A DNA stretch of 64,000 bases. It comes from Apoderus coryli (taxonomy: Eukaryota; Arthropoda; Insecta; Coleoptera; Attelabidae). This document shows, one piece after another, positions 636-63,479 of the stretch. A model generated the notes under the pieces. It saw nothing but the letters and a program-made list of their open reading frames with translations, searched no databases and was not told the DNA's origin. Each line of letters opens with the position of its first letter. The stretch's first letter is position 1. The stretch covers positions 7,047,135 to 7,111,134 of the forward strand of contig OU452202.1 of the NCBI GenBank assembly GCA_911728435.2, read 5' to 3'. Both the position numbers and the translations under genes were made by a program.

Positions 636-652
636 CTAATTAAATTTATGTA

Positions 653-821
653 AAAGAACACATATCTGTACCGTATGTAGTATATACCACAGAATTTATA
701 GAGTTTGGCTGTCAACTATTGACCGATCATCACTGATGAGTCGTGGATCGACGAAACGGCCGTCTGGTGAAAGTATAGTGGTTGACAAACTCTCGAAATT
801 AAGTCTTGTTTTGTTTCTATT
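653..821 (+). mobile_element. 169-bp hammerhead-ribozyme insertion (retrozyme-like), with 17-bp TSD
   Basis: The block is flanked by a perfect 17-bp direct repeat, CTAATTAAATTTATGTA, at 636-652 and 822-838, as expected of a target-site duplication made on insertion. It encodes no protein. Its core, from about 667 to 815, aligns along its whole length with a second unit at 48379-48536. The shared block starts near CTGTACCGT and ends near AAGTCTTRTTTTGTT. It contains one complete hammerhead ribozyme. Short non-coding elements of about 170-400 bp carrying type I hammerheads (retrozymes) are known from animals, and Penelope-like elements also carry hammerheads. Assignment to that class is inferred from size, ribozyme type and the target-site duplication. 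A satellite monomer is less likely because no tandem copy is present. Confidence 0.8.
701..792 (+). ncRNA. Type I hammerhead self-cleaving ribozyme, copy 1
   Basis: All conserved core positions are present. CTGATGA lies at 733-739. Stem II is GTCG (740-743) with CGAC (749-752), closed by a 5-nt loop. GAA follows at 753-755. A minimal stem III (AC 756-757 with GT 762-763) is closed by a GGCC loop. C764 is the residue before the predicted cleavage site, 764|765. Stem I is open. It has an inner helix (727-732 with 765-770, one G-T pair), an internal loop (717-726 and 771-780), an outer helix (711-716 with 781-786) and a further helix GAGTTT (701-706) with AAACTC (787-792). The internal loop of stem I and the stem II loop are placed for the tertiary contact typical of natural hammerheads. 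Self-cleavage is inferred and not shown. Confidence 0.93.
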
Positions 822-838
822 CTAATTAAATTTATGTA

Positions 839-1110: not shown

Positions 1111-2145
1111 AATTCATCATCATCAGCATTTACTCGCTAACGAGTATGAATTACTCCAACTCAGAGATTTCTGTTGTAAATCGTAAGATGGCTAAACAGA
1201 CTGATCCTCGAGCCGCAAATCCTGTCCCAAAATTGACACACCCAATCACCACCACCCACCGGCTGTTATAGATGCGCTACCCCATCGATGCGTTCTCTCT
1301 CCTTTCGATGTTGTCTCTTCGCATCCTCATGTCGTCGACGCTGTTCCTCAAAAATTTGATGGCCCTTGTAAATAGTACGCCTCTATCTCGGTCTGTCGTT
1401 CGCGATCTGATGCCAGTTGTTCTTCACATCTAAGCCACACTTCTTCATGTTGGTCTTAAGAACATCCTTGTACCTCTTTTGCTGCCCTCCCTGATTTCGT
1501 GAGCCAACCTTAAGCTGTGGATAAAGGATTTTCTTTGGAAGGCGTTCCGTTGGCATGCGGATTACATGGCCAATCCATTGTAGCTGGTGCCTGACAATCA
1601 TAGCCTCAATGCTAGTTGTTTCAGCTTCCTCCAGGACGCTGATGTTTGTTCGTCGGTCATGCCATTTAATTCCAAGAATTCGCCTAGGATATCGTTGATG
1701 GTACTTTCCTACGGTTTGTAAATGCCTCCGATAAGTGGTCCATGACTCACATCTATACGTAAGGGTATGAACTATAATAGCATTATACACTCGCAACTTA
1801 GTTCGAACGTAGATGTTATGATTATCGAAGTCTCTCGTGTCAGACGGCCCAAAAATGCGCTTGCCCATCTTATACGATGCTGAATTTCATCATCGATATC
1901 TGCGTTCGACACGAGAATGCTGCCGAGGTAAGCCAAACTCTCGATGTTCTGAAGTCTGTCTCCTTAACTCGAATATGTGGTGGAACAGCGGCACAGATTG
2001 ATGCAGGCTGGTAGAGAATCTGTGTTACCTTTATATTCAGTTCAAGCCCGATACTCCTGTATGCGCTGTTAAATGCATTTAGTCTATATTGAAGATCTTC
2101 TTCTGTATCAGCTAGAACAACAACGTCCCAGCTTGCAGTCTACGA
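1111..2145 (-). mobile_element. RTE-like LINE, 3' part (RT C-terminus to 3' tail), broken
   Basis: On the minus strand this begins near 2145 with a degraded YADD-region remnant that reads VVVLADTEEDLQ. It continues through YLGSILVSNADIDDEIQHRI in another frame. The longest open piece (1868-1383) contains TKLRVYNAIIVHTLTY, ESWTTYRRHLQTV, HQRYPRRILGIKWHDRRTN and LQWIGHVIRMP. This is the thumb and C-terminal region of LINE reverse transcriptases of the RTE/BovB-like type. Near 1250-1150 a C-terminal finger (DWVCQFW..C) is decayed, and the copy at the end of the window keeps it better. The element ends in a TGATGATGATG-type tail at about 1113-1125, as RTE-type elements often do. Frameshifts and stops show it is a dead 5'-truncated copy. 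The clade call is from recalled similarity. Confidence 0.8.
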
Positions 2146-3930: not shown

Positions 3931-3977
3931 GACAATGACAATCGTTAGTGACAATTCATCAAAGAAAATTACTTGTA

Positions 3978-4727
3978 ATGATCAAAAAATATAACAAAAA
4001 CGATATGTTCCTGATTTCACGCGTTGTACTTCGTATAAGTACAGGTCAAAGATACTCCAGTTCTTATTGCCCGGAACAAGTTTTTAGTGAAGAAAATTTG
4101 AGAAAAACTATAGCAAAATTCGCTAGTTTAAAGCCGATAATACGGGTGACTCGGCAACCACCCAAGAAAGCAGCTGTTTTAATACCGCTTTGTGTTGTTA
4201 ATCAAAAGGTGTCGCTACTATATACACTACGGGCGTCGCATTTAAAATCGCATAGGGGGCAAGTTAGCTTCCCTGGAGGTATGCAAGATGTAACAGACAA
4301 AAATTTGGAAGAAACTGCTCTTAGAGAAACCAAAGAAGAATTGGGATTACAAGAGAATAATATTCAGATATGGGGAAGTGGTAATATGATAGTGACGCGA
4401 CTAGAAACTTGTGTAACCCCGGTTATTGGAAGAATATTAACAGATATAAAATTAGATAAATTGAAAATTAATCCACGGGAAGTTGAAGATGTTTTTACAG
4501 TTTCATTAGAAGACTTGTGTGATCCAAATAATTTAAGATATACTCAATTTAAAGACTCTTACTCGACACCAACGTTTCTCGGTGGTAAATTCAGAATTTG
4601 GGGGTTAACTGGACTCATAACAAATATGTTTTTAAGCGCACTTTTGCCACATAAAGCATATTCTCACCAAATCAAATTCATCCCAAGTATAAAATGTACT
4701 AAAAGTATGAGCAAGAACCATGTATAA
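3978..4727 (+). CDS. Nudix hydrolase, mitochondrial CoA-diphosphatase-like (NUDT8-like)
   Basis: A single-exon open frame of 249 codons from the first in-frame ATG. A second ATG at 4005 would give 240 residues beginning MFLISRVVLRISTGQRYSSS, an Arg/Ser-rich start without acidic residues that looks like a mitochondrial presequence; either start is possible. The core has the Nudix box, GGMQDVTDKNLEETALRETK then EELGL, at about residues 100-124. It fits GX5EX7REUXEEXGU and supplies the metal-binding glutamates. Just before it, SHRGQVSFPGG is the signature of CoA-pyrophosphatase-type Nudix enzymes (NUDT7/NUDT8, bacterial NudL). Such enzymes split CoA, acyl-CoA or oxidised CoA into 3',5'-ADP and phosphopantetheine. 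There is no C-terminal peroxisomal tripeptide (it ends KNHV), which with the presequence favours NUDT8 over NUDT7. The frame is intact and an AATAAA follows at 4785. Confidence 0.93.
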   Translation: MIKKYNKNDMFLISRVVLRISTGQRYSSSYCPEQVFSEENLRKTIAKFASLKPIIRVTRQPPKKAAVLIPLCVVNQKVSLLYTLRASHLKSHRGQVSFPGGMQDVTDKNLEETALRETKEELGLQENNIQIWGSGNMIVTRLETCVTPVIGRILTDIKLDKLKINPREVEDVFTVSLEDLCDPNNLRYTQFKDSYSTPTFLGGKFRIWGLTGLITNMFLSALLPHKAYSHQIKFIPSIKCTKSMSKNHV

Positions 4728-20000: not shown

Positions 20001-23000
20001 AAAACATTTAGACTGTAAAAATGATATATTTAGCCTTTTAACTAGTTGAATTGGTGTTAAAAATACACGAAAAAATATTAATGTAATACTTATTTTTAAT
20101 TGATGTTTTCATTCCTTAAGATAACTTCTACTTTTCAAAGTAAGTAATTATTATATCTTATCGTAATATAAATGTATGATGAAAATGAAGGCAGTGTAGT
20201 ACGCAGATGCTAAAAAATACGATTAAGTGATACCCATACATATAGGTCGGTTTCATTGCGTTATGTATTCCACAACAGATCTGAATTATTATATTATAAC
20301 GAAAACTTGCTTTATACAAGTCAATCAATTTTCAAAGAATATGTTGTCGTTAACAGTATGATTCCTTCTTTTCCGATACCCTGTATATATTTCATTTTAG
20401 AGTTAAAGGGATTCTAGAATTTCCAAACAATGGCCTCAATGACCACAAATTATATATATTTTTTTTACAAATTTAGAATTATCGTGATTCACGTGGTCCC
20501 CTATATATAGAATGAATTCATTGTTTCTTGGAAATAGTCTTAATGCAATACGAATCCATAAGATGTTCCTCAATATCAGTACGGCTTCAGGATTAAAATT
20601 TAAAGAGATAACTATATTTATGTCGTAATGTTTAGTAGTTATTTTATTATCATAAAACAGAAGATATTTCACAGTTGCAAAAAATGTACTTACATACAAG
20701 GGTCTAAAATAGGTGGTTAAAATTTGTGAGCGAATTGGGGACGTCTAATCATGAAAAAAACCAAAATTGTAATTCTTCGAAAAGCCTTTATTTAAAAAGA
20801 TACAGGGTACAGAGGACTGCCTGAGGACGATTTTTTTGTAATATTTTCGAAACGAGTAAAGATGAATTAATCAACTGTAGCACATTTATTCACCTAGTTA
20901 AATGTCGTAAACTGACATGAAATTGAAAAAAAATGTGGTAAAATAAAGTTTTCTACATAAAAAAGGAATACTTGTGTAAAGTAAAAAGAAAATAAATAGC
21001 AGGTATCTTTAGTTTTTGTGACATCATTTTGTGTTTGGAGAAACCACATTTGGTATAAACTATAACAAGTTGCTTATGAGGTTATTAAGGCAAACGCGTT
21101 TAAAATTCTGATTTTGAGTTCAGTTTATTTTTATACACAGATAATAAAGTATTCACAAAACGTCAAATGCAAAGATGTTATATAGGGTCAATGTTGGTAT
21201 CTAAATTACAATCGTGTACCTAATAGGTGTGTATGTCCTACTATAATAACCATTTTTCAGTATCAAGGCTAACATAATAATATATACCTAGTACCATAGT
21301 GAAAATGATATTACATGCAATGCTGACTAATTATCGTGAATTCAGATTGGTGTTCTAGTTGTAATATTATTAGTTTCGCAGATAAAACATAAACGTTTTC
21401 ACATTTATAATTATTATGAAGTTCCTTCGAGGCAGAGCTGGGCCGTTAGTGGCATTTAACATTTAATAATAGATTTATATTGATAACATTGATTTGATTC
21501 TTATTCAATAGGGAAAGAAAATATGGAAGAAGCTAAATAAATAAATACTCATCAAGTAATACAAACATCCTTTGATGTCAATTCAACTTGCCAAAGAGAT
21601 TGTTGAAAAACGTTGGTCTGAAATTGGGAAACACACAGATGTCCCATTGGACGATTTCCTTGAAGCACTCGAACTGACTTTAACATCAACATATTTTCAG
21701 TATGAAGATAATTACTACCAACAAATTGAAGGAGTTGCTACTGGCTCATCAATTTCAAGTGCAATTGCTCAGTTGGTGCTTGAGGATTTAGACACTACCA
21801 TCATTCCATATTTACCTTTCAAACCCCTATTTTATTACACATATGTAGATGATTGCATCACTATTAAACCAAACACACAAATAACATCAATGCACAACAC
21901 TTTAAATTCATACCATCCAAAGTTGCAATTCACTACTGAAATAGAGAATCAAAAACAATAAATTTTTTAGATCTTACATTAATAAACAACAATTCTGAAC
22001 TAAAAACCAAATGGTATTCAAAACCTACATGGTCTGGTAGATATACTAACTCAAACCATCCTATATTCCAGAAAAAAAGTGTGGTTATTGCTCGCTGATA
22101 TAGTAATAAAATACAGATCCAGAATATAGAGACGAATGTATTAATAAAGCGAAAAATACATTAAACAAAAACAACTGAAGCCCCACTTTCAACTTTTGGA
22201 ACACCAAAATTTTGGAAATGGAACACACAAAAAAAAAAGAGGATACCTACCAACAGAAAATTTCATTACATCATTTGTCAATGGCGTCCTTGCCATTCCG
22301 GGTTCGAGAATTTTAATAAAACAAACAAACCGTTAAATAATTTTGAGAACTTTTATTAAAAAACGAAATATGATAGAATGGACTATTTTTTCAAATTAAA
22401 AAAAAGAGAATTTTAAAAATGATATACATAAAAAAAATAAAAACAGCGTTAATGACAGAACTGACATTCAACATCTAAGCAGTATCTACCACAATATTAT
22501 AAAATAAAAATAGTACTCACACCCCCCTGTATTTGTTGTAATAAATGTATACCTTTTAAACATCTCACCTGTTATCTATCAAACTTATTGTATAGTTTTG
22601 CGACATTATAGGAAAACTAGCGTTCAAACATAGCAGTACGGTGAGCAGGTGGAGTTATCGCCATTCTATGCCTGAAGTTTGAAACAATATTGTCACGCCT
22701 GAATTGCATTTTATTGTAAAGGTAATCCAGTATCTTCTTATTTATTACTTTGTTGTTTGTTAAAGACGTTGTGAGAGTTTTACTTTACTGTACAAGAGTT
22801 TTAAATTGAAAAACTTTTTTATACAGGCACTCACATGTTCCCTGAATCTCAGGTCCGTGTCCATTCTCACGCGCAAGTTCCGAGCCATAGACATATTCTC
22901 CATATGCATATTACCAACCCTTATTGAATCTAGATCTCTGTAACGGCTTCTTATTTGATTTGTACCAAAGACCTTGTCTTTGTCAATCTCTAAACAGTGG

Positions 23001-48154: not shown

Positions 48155-48378
48155 ATGCGGTCGGGTCCATTTTATTGGGATTCCGCAAAAAACTGTGATT
48201 TACAGCAGCTTCAAATTATACACATTGGTGAAGATGGTGTTTTCAGAGCACTTAAATCGGTTAAAGCTCGACATACTTCGGGTCCGGATGGTGGGCCGGC
48301 CTTTGTCATCAAGGACTGTGCCTCAGTCCTTCGCTAAATCGATTTCAACTATATTTAATTTGTCATTGAAATATAATC

Positions 48379-48536
48379 TCTGTACCGTGTGGGGTATACA
48401 CCACATTATTTACGAGAGTTTGGCTGTCAATTTCTGACCGATCACCACTGATGAGTCGTGGATCGACGAAACGGCCGTCTGCTGAAAATATAGTGGTTGA
48501 CAGACAAACTCTCGGAATTTAAGTCTTATTTTGTTA
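48379..48536 (+). mobile_element. Hammerhead-ribozyme unit, copy 2, inside the LINE frame
   Basis: Aligns with the first unit from CTGTACCGT to AAGTCTTATTTTGTT, about 158 bp, with only scattered differences and a 4-base length change (AGAC) in the 3' arm of stem I. The LINE coding sequence stops at SLKYNL and resumes at about TSEFLETVKKGD on the other side, so the unit lies within former coding DNA. No target duplication is evident here, and about six LINE residues appear lost at the junction. Confidence 0.85.
48414..48513 (+). ncRNA. Type I hammerhead self-cleaving ribozyme, copy 2
   Basis: CTGATGA (48448-48454), stem II GTCG/CGAC (48455-48458 with 48464-48467), GAA (48468-48470), stem III AC/GT with a GGCC loop (48471-48478), and C48479 before the predicted cleavage site 48479|48480. 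Stem I: inner helix 48442-48447 with 48480-48485 (one C-C mismatch at the third pair), outer helices CTGTCAA (48424-48430) with TTGACAG (48497-48503) and GAGAGTTT (48414-48421) with AAACTCTC (48506-48513). All core residues match the consensus. The outer stem is longer than in copy 1. Confidence 0.93.
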
Positions 48537-49620
48537 CAACAAGCGAATTTCTGGAAACTGTCAAAAAAGGTGACAGGCAGGATATTAGAAACTACCGGCC
48601 TATCGTGATGCATGAAGTTTTGTTTAATCATGTCAAGCGGCTCATCACACCTATTCACCACGGATTTTTTTTTTGGGCGATCCAATGCTACTAATCTCGT
48701 AATGTTGAGCTAGTTTTTGGCAGAAAGCTTGGATAGGTCGACGTTATTTATACGGATTTTACCAAAGCCTTTGACAGGCTTGACTACCGAATTCTGCTGC
48801 AAAAGCTTTCGGAAATTGGTTTATCTGTGGATCTTTTAACATTTCTGTTTACTGATCTCCATGAACGTATCTTGTATGTGGAGTACCGTGGTTTCAAGTC
48901 CGGTATTATCCGTGCAATATCTGGAGTGCCGCAGGGTTCTGTGTTGGGTCCCCTCTTATTTATGTGTTTTATTAATAACATTGTAAATGGCGTGAAATGT
49001 CGCTCCCTACTCTTTGCTAATGATTTTAAGGTTTATTCACTGATTACCTCAACTTCTGACTGTCTTCAATTGCAGAATGATCTGAATGTCCTGCTTGACT
49101 GGTTCACTCAAAATAAGCTTGACCTTAATTTGGATAAGTGCTGTTCTGTAACTTTTACTCGTAAGGTAAATCCAATAAGATTTGTGTATAGCATTGACTC
49201 TGTTCCGCTTAAAATATGCGATGAGGTTAAGGATCTGGATCTTTGACGCTAAACTTAGTTATGTGGGGCATGTGGTTGATGTGGTTTCGTCTTCCTTTAA
49301 GAGTCTGGGTTCTGTTATGAGAAATACCAAGCATTTTGTGTCACCTAAAACCCTTATTTTACTGTATAATTCCTTCGTTCGATCGAAAATGGAATATGCG
49401 TCTGTTGTGTGGAGTCCTGGTAATGAGTTGCACTCGAACAGCTTAGAGAGGATTCAGCGAAGAGTTGTGGTTTAAGTGTGAAGGAGTGTATCCATCCATG
49501 GGATTTCCCCATAATGAACTTCTGGGTCGTTTTAATTTGGTACCTCTTGATAGGCGTATAGAGAATATGCCTCACTCCTGTTCCTATTCAAGATCGTGAA
49601 TGGCATCATTGTGTAACGGT

Positions 49621-60589: not shown

Positions 60590-62790
60590 AGCTGTCGCTC
60601 TGTCACCTACAACTTTAGAGTTCAAATTAGAAATATTATCACAGTCATCATTATAAACATTAAAATCACAGTCCCTTTTACTTAAATTCTGATTAGAACT
60701 ATCGTCATTCATACTACTACTTTGCGTACAATAACTTGGTCGGGTGCGCTCAATTCCGGCGTGCGTGCCTCTTCCAACATCGTCCGTCCGTCAACCGACA
60801 CAAATACGTATTTTTACCTATGATCTTCTCCACTGTCGCCTTTGTCCATGATCGGATGTTTTTTTTCTGTATAATCGGCCACCATAACGATTTCGTTAAT
60901 ATTAAATTTCCGTGCTTTAGTAACTTCGTTTTTTACTCCACTGTTGCCCCTCTCCTTAAGAATAGTTAATCTCGTCCGTATTTGCCGATCCAACATGCGT
61001 TTCGCCGGTAGTTCAATGTGGTGTAGTCCTATAGGAAAATAAAAACTCTGAAACCAAAGTATTAATACTTTTGTTTTTATTTACAGGATCGCTTATATGT
61101 GCTTTGAGATTGTTTTTAAATATTTTTACAGCTGACTCCGCTAAACTATTTGACTGAGGGTTATACGCCGGTGAGGTAATATGTTTTATTCCGTTTCTCT
61201 GGAAGAATTGTTGTAATTTAACAGCGACAAATTGTGGTCCATTGGTACTAGGCAAACCAAACCTTGAAATTGCGGCCTTTAACTTCTCTTCTACCTCATC
61301 CGCCGTTGTTCTTCTCATTACACGTACTTCTGGCCACTTTGAAAAAGAATCTATTATTATCAAAAAGTTTTGCTTATTTAACTCCAATAGATCCATATGA
61401 ACTCTGTCAAATGGTGCCTGCGCCTCTGGCCATGTCGTATTTTGGAGTTTCAGTGGAGTCTGCATATTCTGCAAGCAATGCATACAAGGTTTACACATTT
61501 TTCTATCTTTTTATCCAACTCCGGCCAATACAAATACGATCTTGCTAGATTTTTAGTTTGTCATACCAAAATGATGTGAATGGAGCTCCTCTAACAACTT
61601 CTGACGAAGCGGTTCTGGTACTACTATTCGGTGTCCCAAAATAAGCACCTCATTCTCCACCGTAAGCTCGCACTTCTTCTTTAAATATGGTTTGTGGCAT
61701 ACTTCTACAACTCTTGGCAATTTTCCCGTCATGATCCATTCCACAATCTCGCTAAACGTCTTGTCTTCGGTAGTTTTGCGTTTTATCTCGACGTTATTGA
61801 TAGGCCATTCATCAACTCGTTGTGAAATTCAAATACTCGCATTTTTTGACTTCGGACCTGAAATCAATATTAATTGGAGCTCTTGACAAATAACATATGC
61901 TGCCCATCGCTGCAATCTAATTGCATACATCTGGGGAATACCCGTTTTCTCTCCAAATATTGCTGTAAGAGCTTTGCGCTGTCTGTTGTTAAAACAAAGC
62001 GTTTGCCGTACGAATATTGATAAAATCTGCCGCCTCGCGATGACAGATAGGCCAACACATTTCCGCTTTCGTAAATGTACGAGATATGAAGCAAATAGGT
62101 CTCTCATCCCCACTTGGCAGCCGATATTCCCGTATCCGATGCATCCGTTGTCAAAATCACCGGTAACATCGGATTGTAATGGACCAGCACCATATCTGAT
62201 GCTATAAGTTCTTTTATTTTAAAAAAATATTGTTCCGTGGTCCTATTCCAGTCGATTTGATCATTTTTACTACATTTTAAGAGATTGATAATTGGTCTTA
62301 AAATATCAGATATGTTTGGTATGAATTTACTATAATAATTAACCATGCCGAGGAATGATCTTACCTCTTTTAAAGTTCTCGGTCGTGGAGCGTCGATACT
62401 TGCTCGCACCTTCGATTCTGACTTCTTTAATCCATCCCCCGTAATTCTATGTCCCAAAAATTCCAGTGATTCTTTAACAAATTCGCATTTGTCGAATCGT
62501 ACTGTCAAACCTGCTTCTTTCAGTTTTTCCAATACTCTTTCCAATGTTTGAATGTGTTCTTTATGACTTGTTCCTGTAATAAGAATGTCATCAAGATATG
62601 CACACACGTTATCCATGTCAACAAATAGTTGGTCTATGTATTTTTGAAAAATAAAACTAGAAACCGTCACACCAAATGGCAATCTATTCATCTTGAACAA
62701 TCCTGTGGACGTTGACAATGTCAATAACATTTTGGACTCCTCGGTAAGCTCGAACTGATTATAAGCGTTTAGGTCCTGCCCGCTATATCT
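60590..62790 (-). pseudogene. Ty3/gypsy pol relic (RT, RNase H, integrase)
   Basis: From 62790 down: YNQFELTEESKMLLTLSTST, NRLPFGVTVSSFIFQKYIDQ, CAYLDDILITG (YLDD at 62598-62587), EFLGHRITGDGLKKSESKV, VRSFLGMVNYYSKFIPNISD; then RNase H pieces (RPICFISYIYES, YGKRFVLTTD, AIFGEKTGIPQMYAIRLQRW); then integrase: HHFGM and CKPCMHCLQNMQTP (HHCC finger), FDRVHMDLLELNKQNFLIII, NGPQFVAVKLQQFF, YNPQSNSLAESAVKIFKNNL, FSYRTTPH and the C-terminal LDRQIRTRLTILKE. Frame changes at about 62110 and 61830-61500. The catalytic Asp before NGPQF is deleted. Gag, protease and LTRs were not found. Confidence 0.93.
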
Positions 62791-63479
62791 ATTATCTTGT
62801 CATGAATTGATCAAGCAAAGATTAATATGAAACAGGTTACATCCTGACAAACAAATGTTTAAATAAAAAAATTATTATTTTAGATTATATTAATTTTGTT
62901 TTTGTAGTGTAGGTATATTTGCATAGCATACACTTGCTACAAGCAATGTGTAATACGTATTAAAATCTAGTAGGTAGATAGAACATTTAAATTGCAAAAA
63001 TACAATAATAATAGGAGCGCTTTTTTATGTTTGATGTTTTTGTTTATGATTTCTTCTTGTTTAGAATAATTTATTTATCCCACTATCTATGCCATTAAAA
63101 TATTTGTTATGTCGCATCTTATTTCACCATACAGTATGTCTCTTGTTTACCTATACTGCCAATGGCGTATCTAGCAGTGTTCCGCGTGGTCAGAAAACGC
63201 CCTATGGCCCCGAAGGCGCCCGGTGCTCGCTAATGTCATAATAAGTATTTAAAAAACGAAACGGTTAGCAAGAGAGTCTTCAGGATCATGCACGACGATA
63301 CTTATGCAAATGTAAATAAGTTAGGCATTAAAACTGAGCCATTGTAGCTTTGCTACTCCCAAAGGCTTAATTACATACCAAAGAATTTATCTTAGAGAAA
63401 ATGCGAAAAATTAACAGAACCTATTAACTACGTACGTTAATCAGTAATTATATTTAGTATTTACTATTAAATATTATTT
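62791..63479. other. Intergenic, no gene recognised
   Basis: AT-rich, with a GC-richer stretch near 63176-63230 (CCCCGAAGGCGCCCGGTGC). The gypsy reading stops abruptly near 62790, so this may be the site of a deletion or an insertion break. Confidence 0.4.

Follow-up and report, generated by a model that had tools for sequence, protein, structure and literature searches.

The Locus

The window, i.e., the whole 64,000-nt stretch of Apoderus coryli DNA analyzed here (contig OU452202.1, 7,047,135 to 7,111,134), holds two related copies of a short non-coding repeat with a hammerhead ribozyme motif, set among open reading frames and retroelement fragments. The features on which the argument draws are listed below; U denotes the reference unit of the repeat family, and A and B the two sites at which its inserts end, as described in later sections.

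636..652, no strand: target-site duplication, left copy, 17 bp, exact repeat
649..656, minus strand: tentative 8-nt site-B stub, read by eye, may be chance
653..821, plus strand: insert of 169 bp between the repeats
660..815, plus strand: stretch aligning to U156-317 of the 332-nt unit, 88% identical
727..770, plus strand: Rfam Hammerhead_1 match including inner stem I, 32.1 bits, below gathering
733..764, plus strand: hammerhead core, type I, predicted cleavage 764|765
822..838, no strand: target-site duplication, right copy, 17 bp, exact repeat
21560..21961, plus strand: Penelope-type reverse transcriptase (RT) fragment, candidate partner family, weak Pfam RVT_1 match
48376..48551, plus strand: second copy, U158-332, ends at site A, adjoins a LINE-like RT fragment
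48442..48485, plus strand: second-copy hammerhead, 24.0 bits, with one broken pair in stem I

The neighbors include a NUDT8-like Nudix hydrolase ORF (3939-4727, plus strand; 70% identical to that of the beetle Anoplophora glabripennis, its best named match, which points to a phytophagan beetle as host), the LINE-like RT fragment beside the second copy (RVT_1; 48737-49246, plus strand), and integrase core and RT/RNase H fragments of an LTR-type retroelement (61013-61510 and 62104-62799, minus strand). A 167-aa open frame (1383-1886, minus strand) resembles the end of a LINE protein, and a Pfam search of this frame returned no match. The RT fragment at 21560-21961 we take, from its motifs, to be Penelope-like.

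The first copy is sharply delimited. The 17-bp repeats on its two sides are identical and enclose a 169-bp block; they form the sole exact repeat of at least 15 bp with copies 50-400 bp apart in the whole window, and 40 runs of order-2 simulation produced no repeat of 17 bp. The borders that a sequence-only reading of this DNA had assigned to the block are exact. Its other structural claim, an intact type I hammerhead at 733-764, holds as well: the conserved positions of the core are present, cleavage is predicted after C764, and a structural pattern scan of the window found the motif once vs 0.07 expected, with no further hammerhead passing besides this copy. In the covariance search that the same reading had proposed as a check, the match to Hammerhead_1 (RF00163) has an E-value of 5.2e-6 over 701 bases searched and 4.8e-4 over the whole window; a gathering-threshold Rfam search of the window returned no match because the score of 32.1 bits lies 2 bits below the cut-off of 34. 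The predicted fold counts against the motif: in a nearest-neighbor model, which has no tertiary contacts, the minimum-energy structure of this copy lacks the hammerhead, and the hammerhead-containing structure is 8.7 kcal/mol weaker.

The ends of the first copy are less regular. On the 3' side, it stops 15 nt short of site A. On the other side, TGTAAAAG (649..656) is the reverse complement of U151-158, with its first 4 bases common to the target duplication; this could be a site-B stub, an assignment that is tentative because the match is only 8 nt long. Around the second copy, a target duplication was searched for and not found, a result that counts against the insertion model set out below. 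Comparison of the two copies shows no difference in 36 columns of the core and 22 differences in 124 columns outside it (Fisher p 0.0023). A compensatory change in the 5' hairpin is not claimed because the predicted folds of the two copies disagree there.

The Repeat Family

A genome search with the block yielded 41 places (best 40 of 1,364 candidates scored), which, together with the second window copy, lie in 39 regions, the first set, chosen by likeness to the window copy. In these regions, the block is part of a larger, 332-nt repeat arranged in head-to-tail arrays, with four units in locus L024; a real unit from this array (L024:581-912; GC, 46%; cleavage after U261) serves as the reference U1-U332. 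The idea that both window copies are full-length 169-bp elements was dropped, 332-nt units having been found in head-to-tail arrays. The exact 32-nt core occurs 1,983 times in the 428-Mb genome (990 + 993), and its reversed control not once. The first 100 core places listed, all on contig 1, were merged by eye into 68 clusters, of which 3 were already in the first set, and 44 further regions were analyzed as the contig-1 set. Neither set samples decayed copies because they were chosen by likeness to the window copy (first set) or by an exact core (contig-1 set).

The exact cores comprise at least two retrozyme families, with units of 332 and 336 nt; some tandems reach six units or more. The second family, to which part of the contig-1 set belongs and which is represented by the reference W from L085, has the core in common with U and is ~69% identical to it where the two align. 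Three of its arrays, L085, L072 and L097 (contig C1), look younger, with near-identical units and weaker target duplications.

These findings recast the sequence-only reading. Its proposal that a hammerhead-bearing, non-coding sequence inserted here and duplicated its target site is supported, and the sequence belongs to the retrozymes. Its further suggestion of a short form present singly at each site, as opposed to arrays, gives way to a 332-nt unit in tandem and inverted arrays; the borders at 653 and 821 are not common to the other copies fetched from the genome, an outcome that it had itself named beforehand as refuting. Four traits of metazoan non-LTR retrozymes are present, viz. a type I hammerhead, tandem units of ~150-450 bp (the window copies themselves being single half-units), GC below 50% (in U) and, where duplications occur, a length of more than 4 bp. 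The element is almost certainly a retrozyme, and its sequence is best explained as a copy of about half a unit.

Published metazoan non-LTR retrozymes are similar in their type I hammerheads, small non-coding tandem units (170-400 nt), low GC and duplications longer than 4 bp; the two-fixed-end, head-to-head inserts of the beetle are a point of difference, the words "inverted" and "head-to-head" being absent from the main text of that paper (PMC7229834). Long duplications around metazoan hammerhead repeats are already in print, e.g., one of 15 bp in Nematostella (PMC4918200). Plant LTR retrozymes are likewise hammerhead retroelements thought to move through circular RNA, but have type III hammerheads, LTRs and 4-bp duplications (PMC4918200).

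A third comparison is with schistosome Sm-alpha and Sj-alpha, interspersed non-coding repeats that also contain a type I hammerhead and are called SINE-like (PMC8490949). If the beetle element were of this kind, it would be copied from a defined linear RNA, as proposed for Sm-alpha; it is interspersed and non-coding, with a hammerhead inside and a T-run near its end, all of which would fit. A tRNA is reported for the schistosome repeats (PMC4918200), whereas none was found in the beetle window, and tandem and two-ended inserts are not what such an element would leave. Pol III promoter boxes, sought by pattern, gave no A box and, as the only B-box-like string, GGATCGA. With neither a tRNA nor an A box, an Sm-alpha-like SINE is disfavored and very improbable.

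Anatomy of the Inserts

Many inserts consist of two opposite arms that meet at a variable inner junction, each with the 3' end of its unit facing outward. The 83 loci contain 89 insert structures. In 44 of them an outward 3' end could be assigned on both of the opposite arms, and 43 of these pair an A end with a B end. L056 is the exception, scored A/A, with a B-site stub seen by eye outside the aligned part; at its left end a short B-site piece is followed directly by the A-side stem, as if the enzyme had jumped between hinges. L023 and L042 (contig C23, ~52 kb apart) hold the same insert in the same flanks; the flanks being identical, the two are one insertion within a segmental duplication, and the 44 two-ended inserts therefore represent 43 independent ones.

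Both sites are narrow. In the first set, 33 of 35 A ends fall at U330-332 and two at U327, and all 25 B ends at U156-161; in the W family, A ends lie mostly at W334-336, with a few down to W321, and B ends mostly at W152-161. The first set (42 structures, 39 loci) comprises 20 A/B, 13 A only, 5 B only, two with A and an unassigned end and two with neither, and not one A/A or B/B; the contig-1 set (47 structures, 44 loci) comprises 23 A/B, 14 A only, 8 B only, one A/A and one with neither, again with no B/B. A large share of the structures, 23 in the contig-1 set and 20 in the first set out of 89, is not two-ended as scored, which counts against a two-site model; "A only" and "B only" include decayed inserts, inserts truncated at the edge of the locus, and some whose stub at the other site is short (the script required 9 nt to score one).

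The arms have a fixed polarity: where opposite cores lie less than 600 bp apart, the order is minus-then-plus in 13 of 13 clusters (first 100 places listed, judged by eye). The outer 3' ends stay clear of the cleavage site: across the 89 structures, also judged by eye, none falls 5 nt or less from it. No motif common to A and B was found in both families: in U the best match to A elsewhere in the unit is at B, which does not hold for W. All four sites are preceded at 15-17 nt by a Y-AA(A)CA string, a post hoc choice that is no more than a lead.

Target Duplications and Microhomology

Target duplications flush with the insert accompany most two-ended inserts of the U family. At a score of at least 5, 30 of 35 have one (null, 0.10), and at a score of at least 8, 29 of 35 (null, 0.018); 28 of the 30 are 10-13 bp long, within a range of 8-13 bp. 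In the W family, the corresponding numbers are 6 of 14 (null, 0.025) and 3 of 14 (null, 0.005), and the finding of a flush duplication in just 6 of 14 inserts counts against the model. The six unit bases that follow A agree with the target at 130 of 210 positions vs 84 in shuffles (none of 2,000 as high), an excess that may stem from short-homology priming or from a start that lies a few bases further on; B shows no such excess (40 of 150 vs 43). The presence of microhomology at A and its absence at B also count against the model.

Satellite DNA reshaped by recombination, with the inverted arrays made at the DNA level, would account for units that are tandem and similar. This account is scarcely tenable: whole inserts are flanked by flush duplications, both families end at the same two sites, and the arms occur in minus-then-plus order only. 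The inserts were very probably made by target-primed copying from two preferred sites.

Penelope-Like Elements of the Same Genome

Which enzyme could copy from two sites? The beetle genome has many relatives of the Penelope-type RT in the window (best 150 of 1,639 candidates scored), with frames of up to 815 aa. Pairs less than 4 kb apart, picked by eye, are arranged minus/plus in 11 cases (two of which resemble one duplicated locus), plus/minus in none, and plus/plus and minus/minus in one each. Each of the four two-ended Penelope loci read has a 36-nt tail at one end and none at the other, and their duplications are 12, 16, 14 and 8 bp; the short end of L100/L101 is ambiguous by 10 nt, which fall inside the duplication. 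This two-site asymmetry, common to the Penelope copies, supports Penelope-type two-site, target-primed copying of the retrozyme RNA. Judged by their sequence, the retrozyme inserts would themselves pass for Penelope-type insertions, with head-to-head arms, two alternative 3' ends each used once, and duplications; the retrozyme is not filed as a Penelope element because its 332-nt unit is far shorter than an 815-aa frame.

Published Penelope systems point in the same direction. Penelope is described with head-to-head inverted pLTRs, a 31-bp tail and 8-10 bp duplications (PMC3846280), and in experiments with purified Penelope protein from Anolis, both strands of AT-rich DNA were cut and extended, and copying began at two positions inside the RNA that delimit the tail (PMC11167929). 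The retrozyme shares with Penelope-like elements the tandem and head-to-head inserts, AT-rich targets, short duplications and two alternative 3' end sites, with and without a tail (PMC11167929, PMC3846280). It differs from them in size and spacing: Penelope-like elements encode an RT and an endonuclease, whereas the retrozyme unit is 332 nt, and the A-B spacing is about half a unit in the retrozyme vs about 36 nt in Penelope-like elements. A search within 1.5 kb of 12 Penelope RTs turned up no hammerhead, and comparison of the retrozyme with the Penelope loci revealed no significant similarity in common; both results count against a partnership. The enzyme is nonetheless probably Penelope's.

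Twin priming with inversions is known from LINE-1. If a LINE with its own endonuclease copied the retrozyme by ordinary twin priming, inverted arms would follow as they do in LINE-1, duplications of 10-13 bp would fit too, and the window does hold LINE-like RT fragments. The second start site would then be expected to scatter; it is fixed, and Penelope copies of the same genome have the same paired end sites, which makes a LINE an unlikely source.

The Template

The units within an insert are more alike than units of different inserts. In the U family, median divergence is 2.1% within the same arm (42 pairs) and 2.0% between opposite arms (44 pairs) vs 5.0% between inserts; in the W family, it is 0.3% (38 pairs) and 0.7% (33 pairs) vs 3.5%. 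In L072, the arms run to 2.4 and 2.5 rounds, with no difference in any comparison, and L054 likewise has none; L085 has 3.7 and 2.5 rounds with 0-2 differences, and L097 has six units, up to the locus edge, with 0-1. Against one template per insert stand the 20 of 157 within-insert pairs that are no closer than the median to other inserts, and L019 and L034, in which segments of one insert are 14-16% apart.

These data bear on the form of the template. The main rival keeps the same two-site Penelope-type priming and lets uncleaved, linear, multimeric transcripts of arrays be copied. Tandem RNA would also give tandem cDNA, which counts against circularity, and a homogeneous source array could also give identical arms; in the published Penelope model tandem loci yield multi-copy RNA, and mutating the hammerhead does not abolish insertion in vitro (PMC11167929). 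That hammerhead cleavage is not needed by the Anolis Penelope in vitro (PMC11167929) likewise counts against circularity. However, the two arms of an insert, as in L072 and L085, can each run past one unit with no or almost no differences, a product that a single circle gives directly, and published retrozymes of other animals accumulate as circles (PMC7229834). A linear multimer is possible, if rather unlikely; the template is probably a circle.

When folded as circles, both reference units are predicted to have a pair of long arms, and A and B lie in the stretches that connect these. Across eight real units, both references included, and with 12-nt windows, the A window is predicted to reach at least the 90th percentile of single-strandedness in seven (71st in L097) and the B window at least the 82nd in all eight; the cleavage-site window is at or below the 20th in all eight. 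An alignment of 29 hammerhead regions (from 62 distinct) has 25 predicted pairs, four with changes on both sides; its consensus does not form the catalytic stems, and its conserved core is partly built in because of the way the regions were selected.

Proposed Mechanism

The overall explanation that we favor, at a probability of roughly 0.7, is that the window feature is a half-unit retrozyme made by Penelope-type two-site priming on an RNA circle. Transcripts of tandem copies would self-cleave at the hammerhead and close into circles of 332 or 336 nt with a two-lobed fold; cleavage in vivo and circle formation are assumed here by analogy with published retrozymes. A Penelope-type protein would cut both strands at an AT-rich site with a stagger of ~12 nt, and the two target 3' ends would start reverse transcription at two preferred positions inside the unit, A and B, which would form the hinges of the two-lobed fold. 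A single cDNA would span part of a round or several rounds, and the pair would be joined in head-to-head orientation at a position that varies; half-units, the window copy among them, would be small products of two-site copying.

Metazoan retrozymes have been proposed to have circular intermediates, and Penelope has been named a strong candidate (PMC7229834). The mobilizing enzyme and the priming of animal retrozymes are left open in a paper that describes their repeats as lacking any conserved motif from which an autonomous partner might be deduced (PMC7761336). We lean, if only slightly, toward a more specific reading, in which the two paired start sites at the fold hinges of the circles play the part of the two that Penelope RNA has, and genomic retrozymes are fossils of dual target-primed, rolling-circle copying by a Penelope protein. 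If this reading is true, the mobilizing partner of animal retrozymes is identified; if the template is a circle, retrozymes represent natural rolling-circle reverse transcription in an animal genome. The insertion scars give these questions a testable answer, with start sites predicted to within a few bases in two families, and with a candidate partner in the genome. No paper on retrozymes with two-site or twin priming was among the literature matches listed, "twin priming" being absent from the best 20 of 33 and "head-to-head" from the best 12 of 14; most subscription journals lie outside the scope of this search, and novelty is not proved by it.

Hammerhead Motifs in Viral and Bacterial Sequences

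The exact core has no match in viral contigs. A looser hammerhead pattern picked out five viral stretches and one bacterial stretch; in BLAST against the element, one of the six does not match at all and five match around the core only. The viral contig motifs (L001-L005) include one that is common to L002-L005, and the remaining motif, L006, comes from a bacterial bin.
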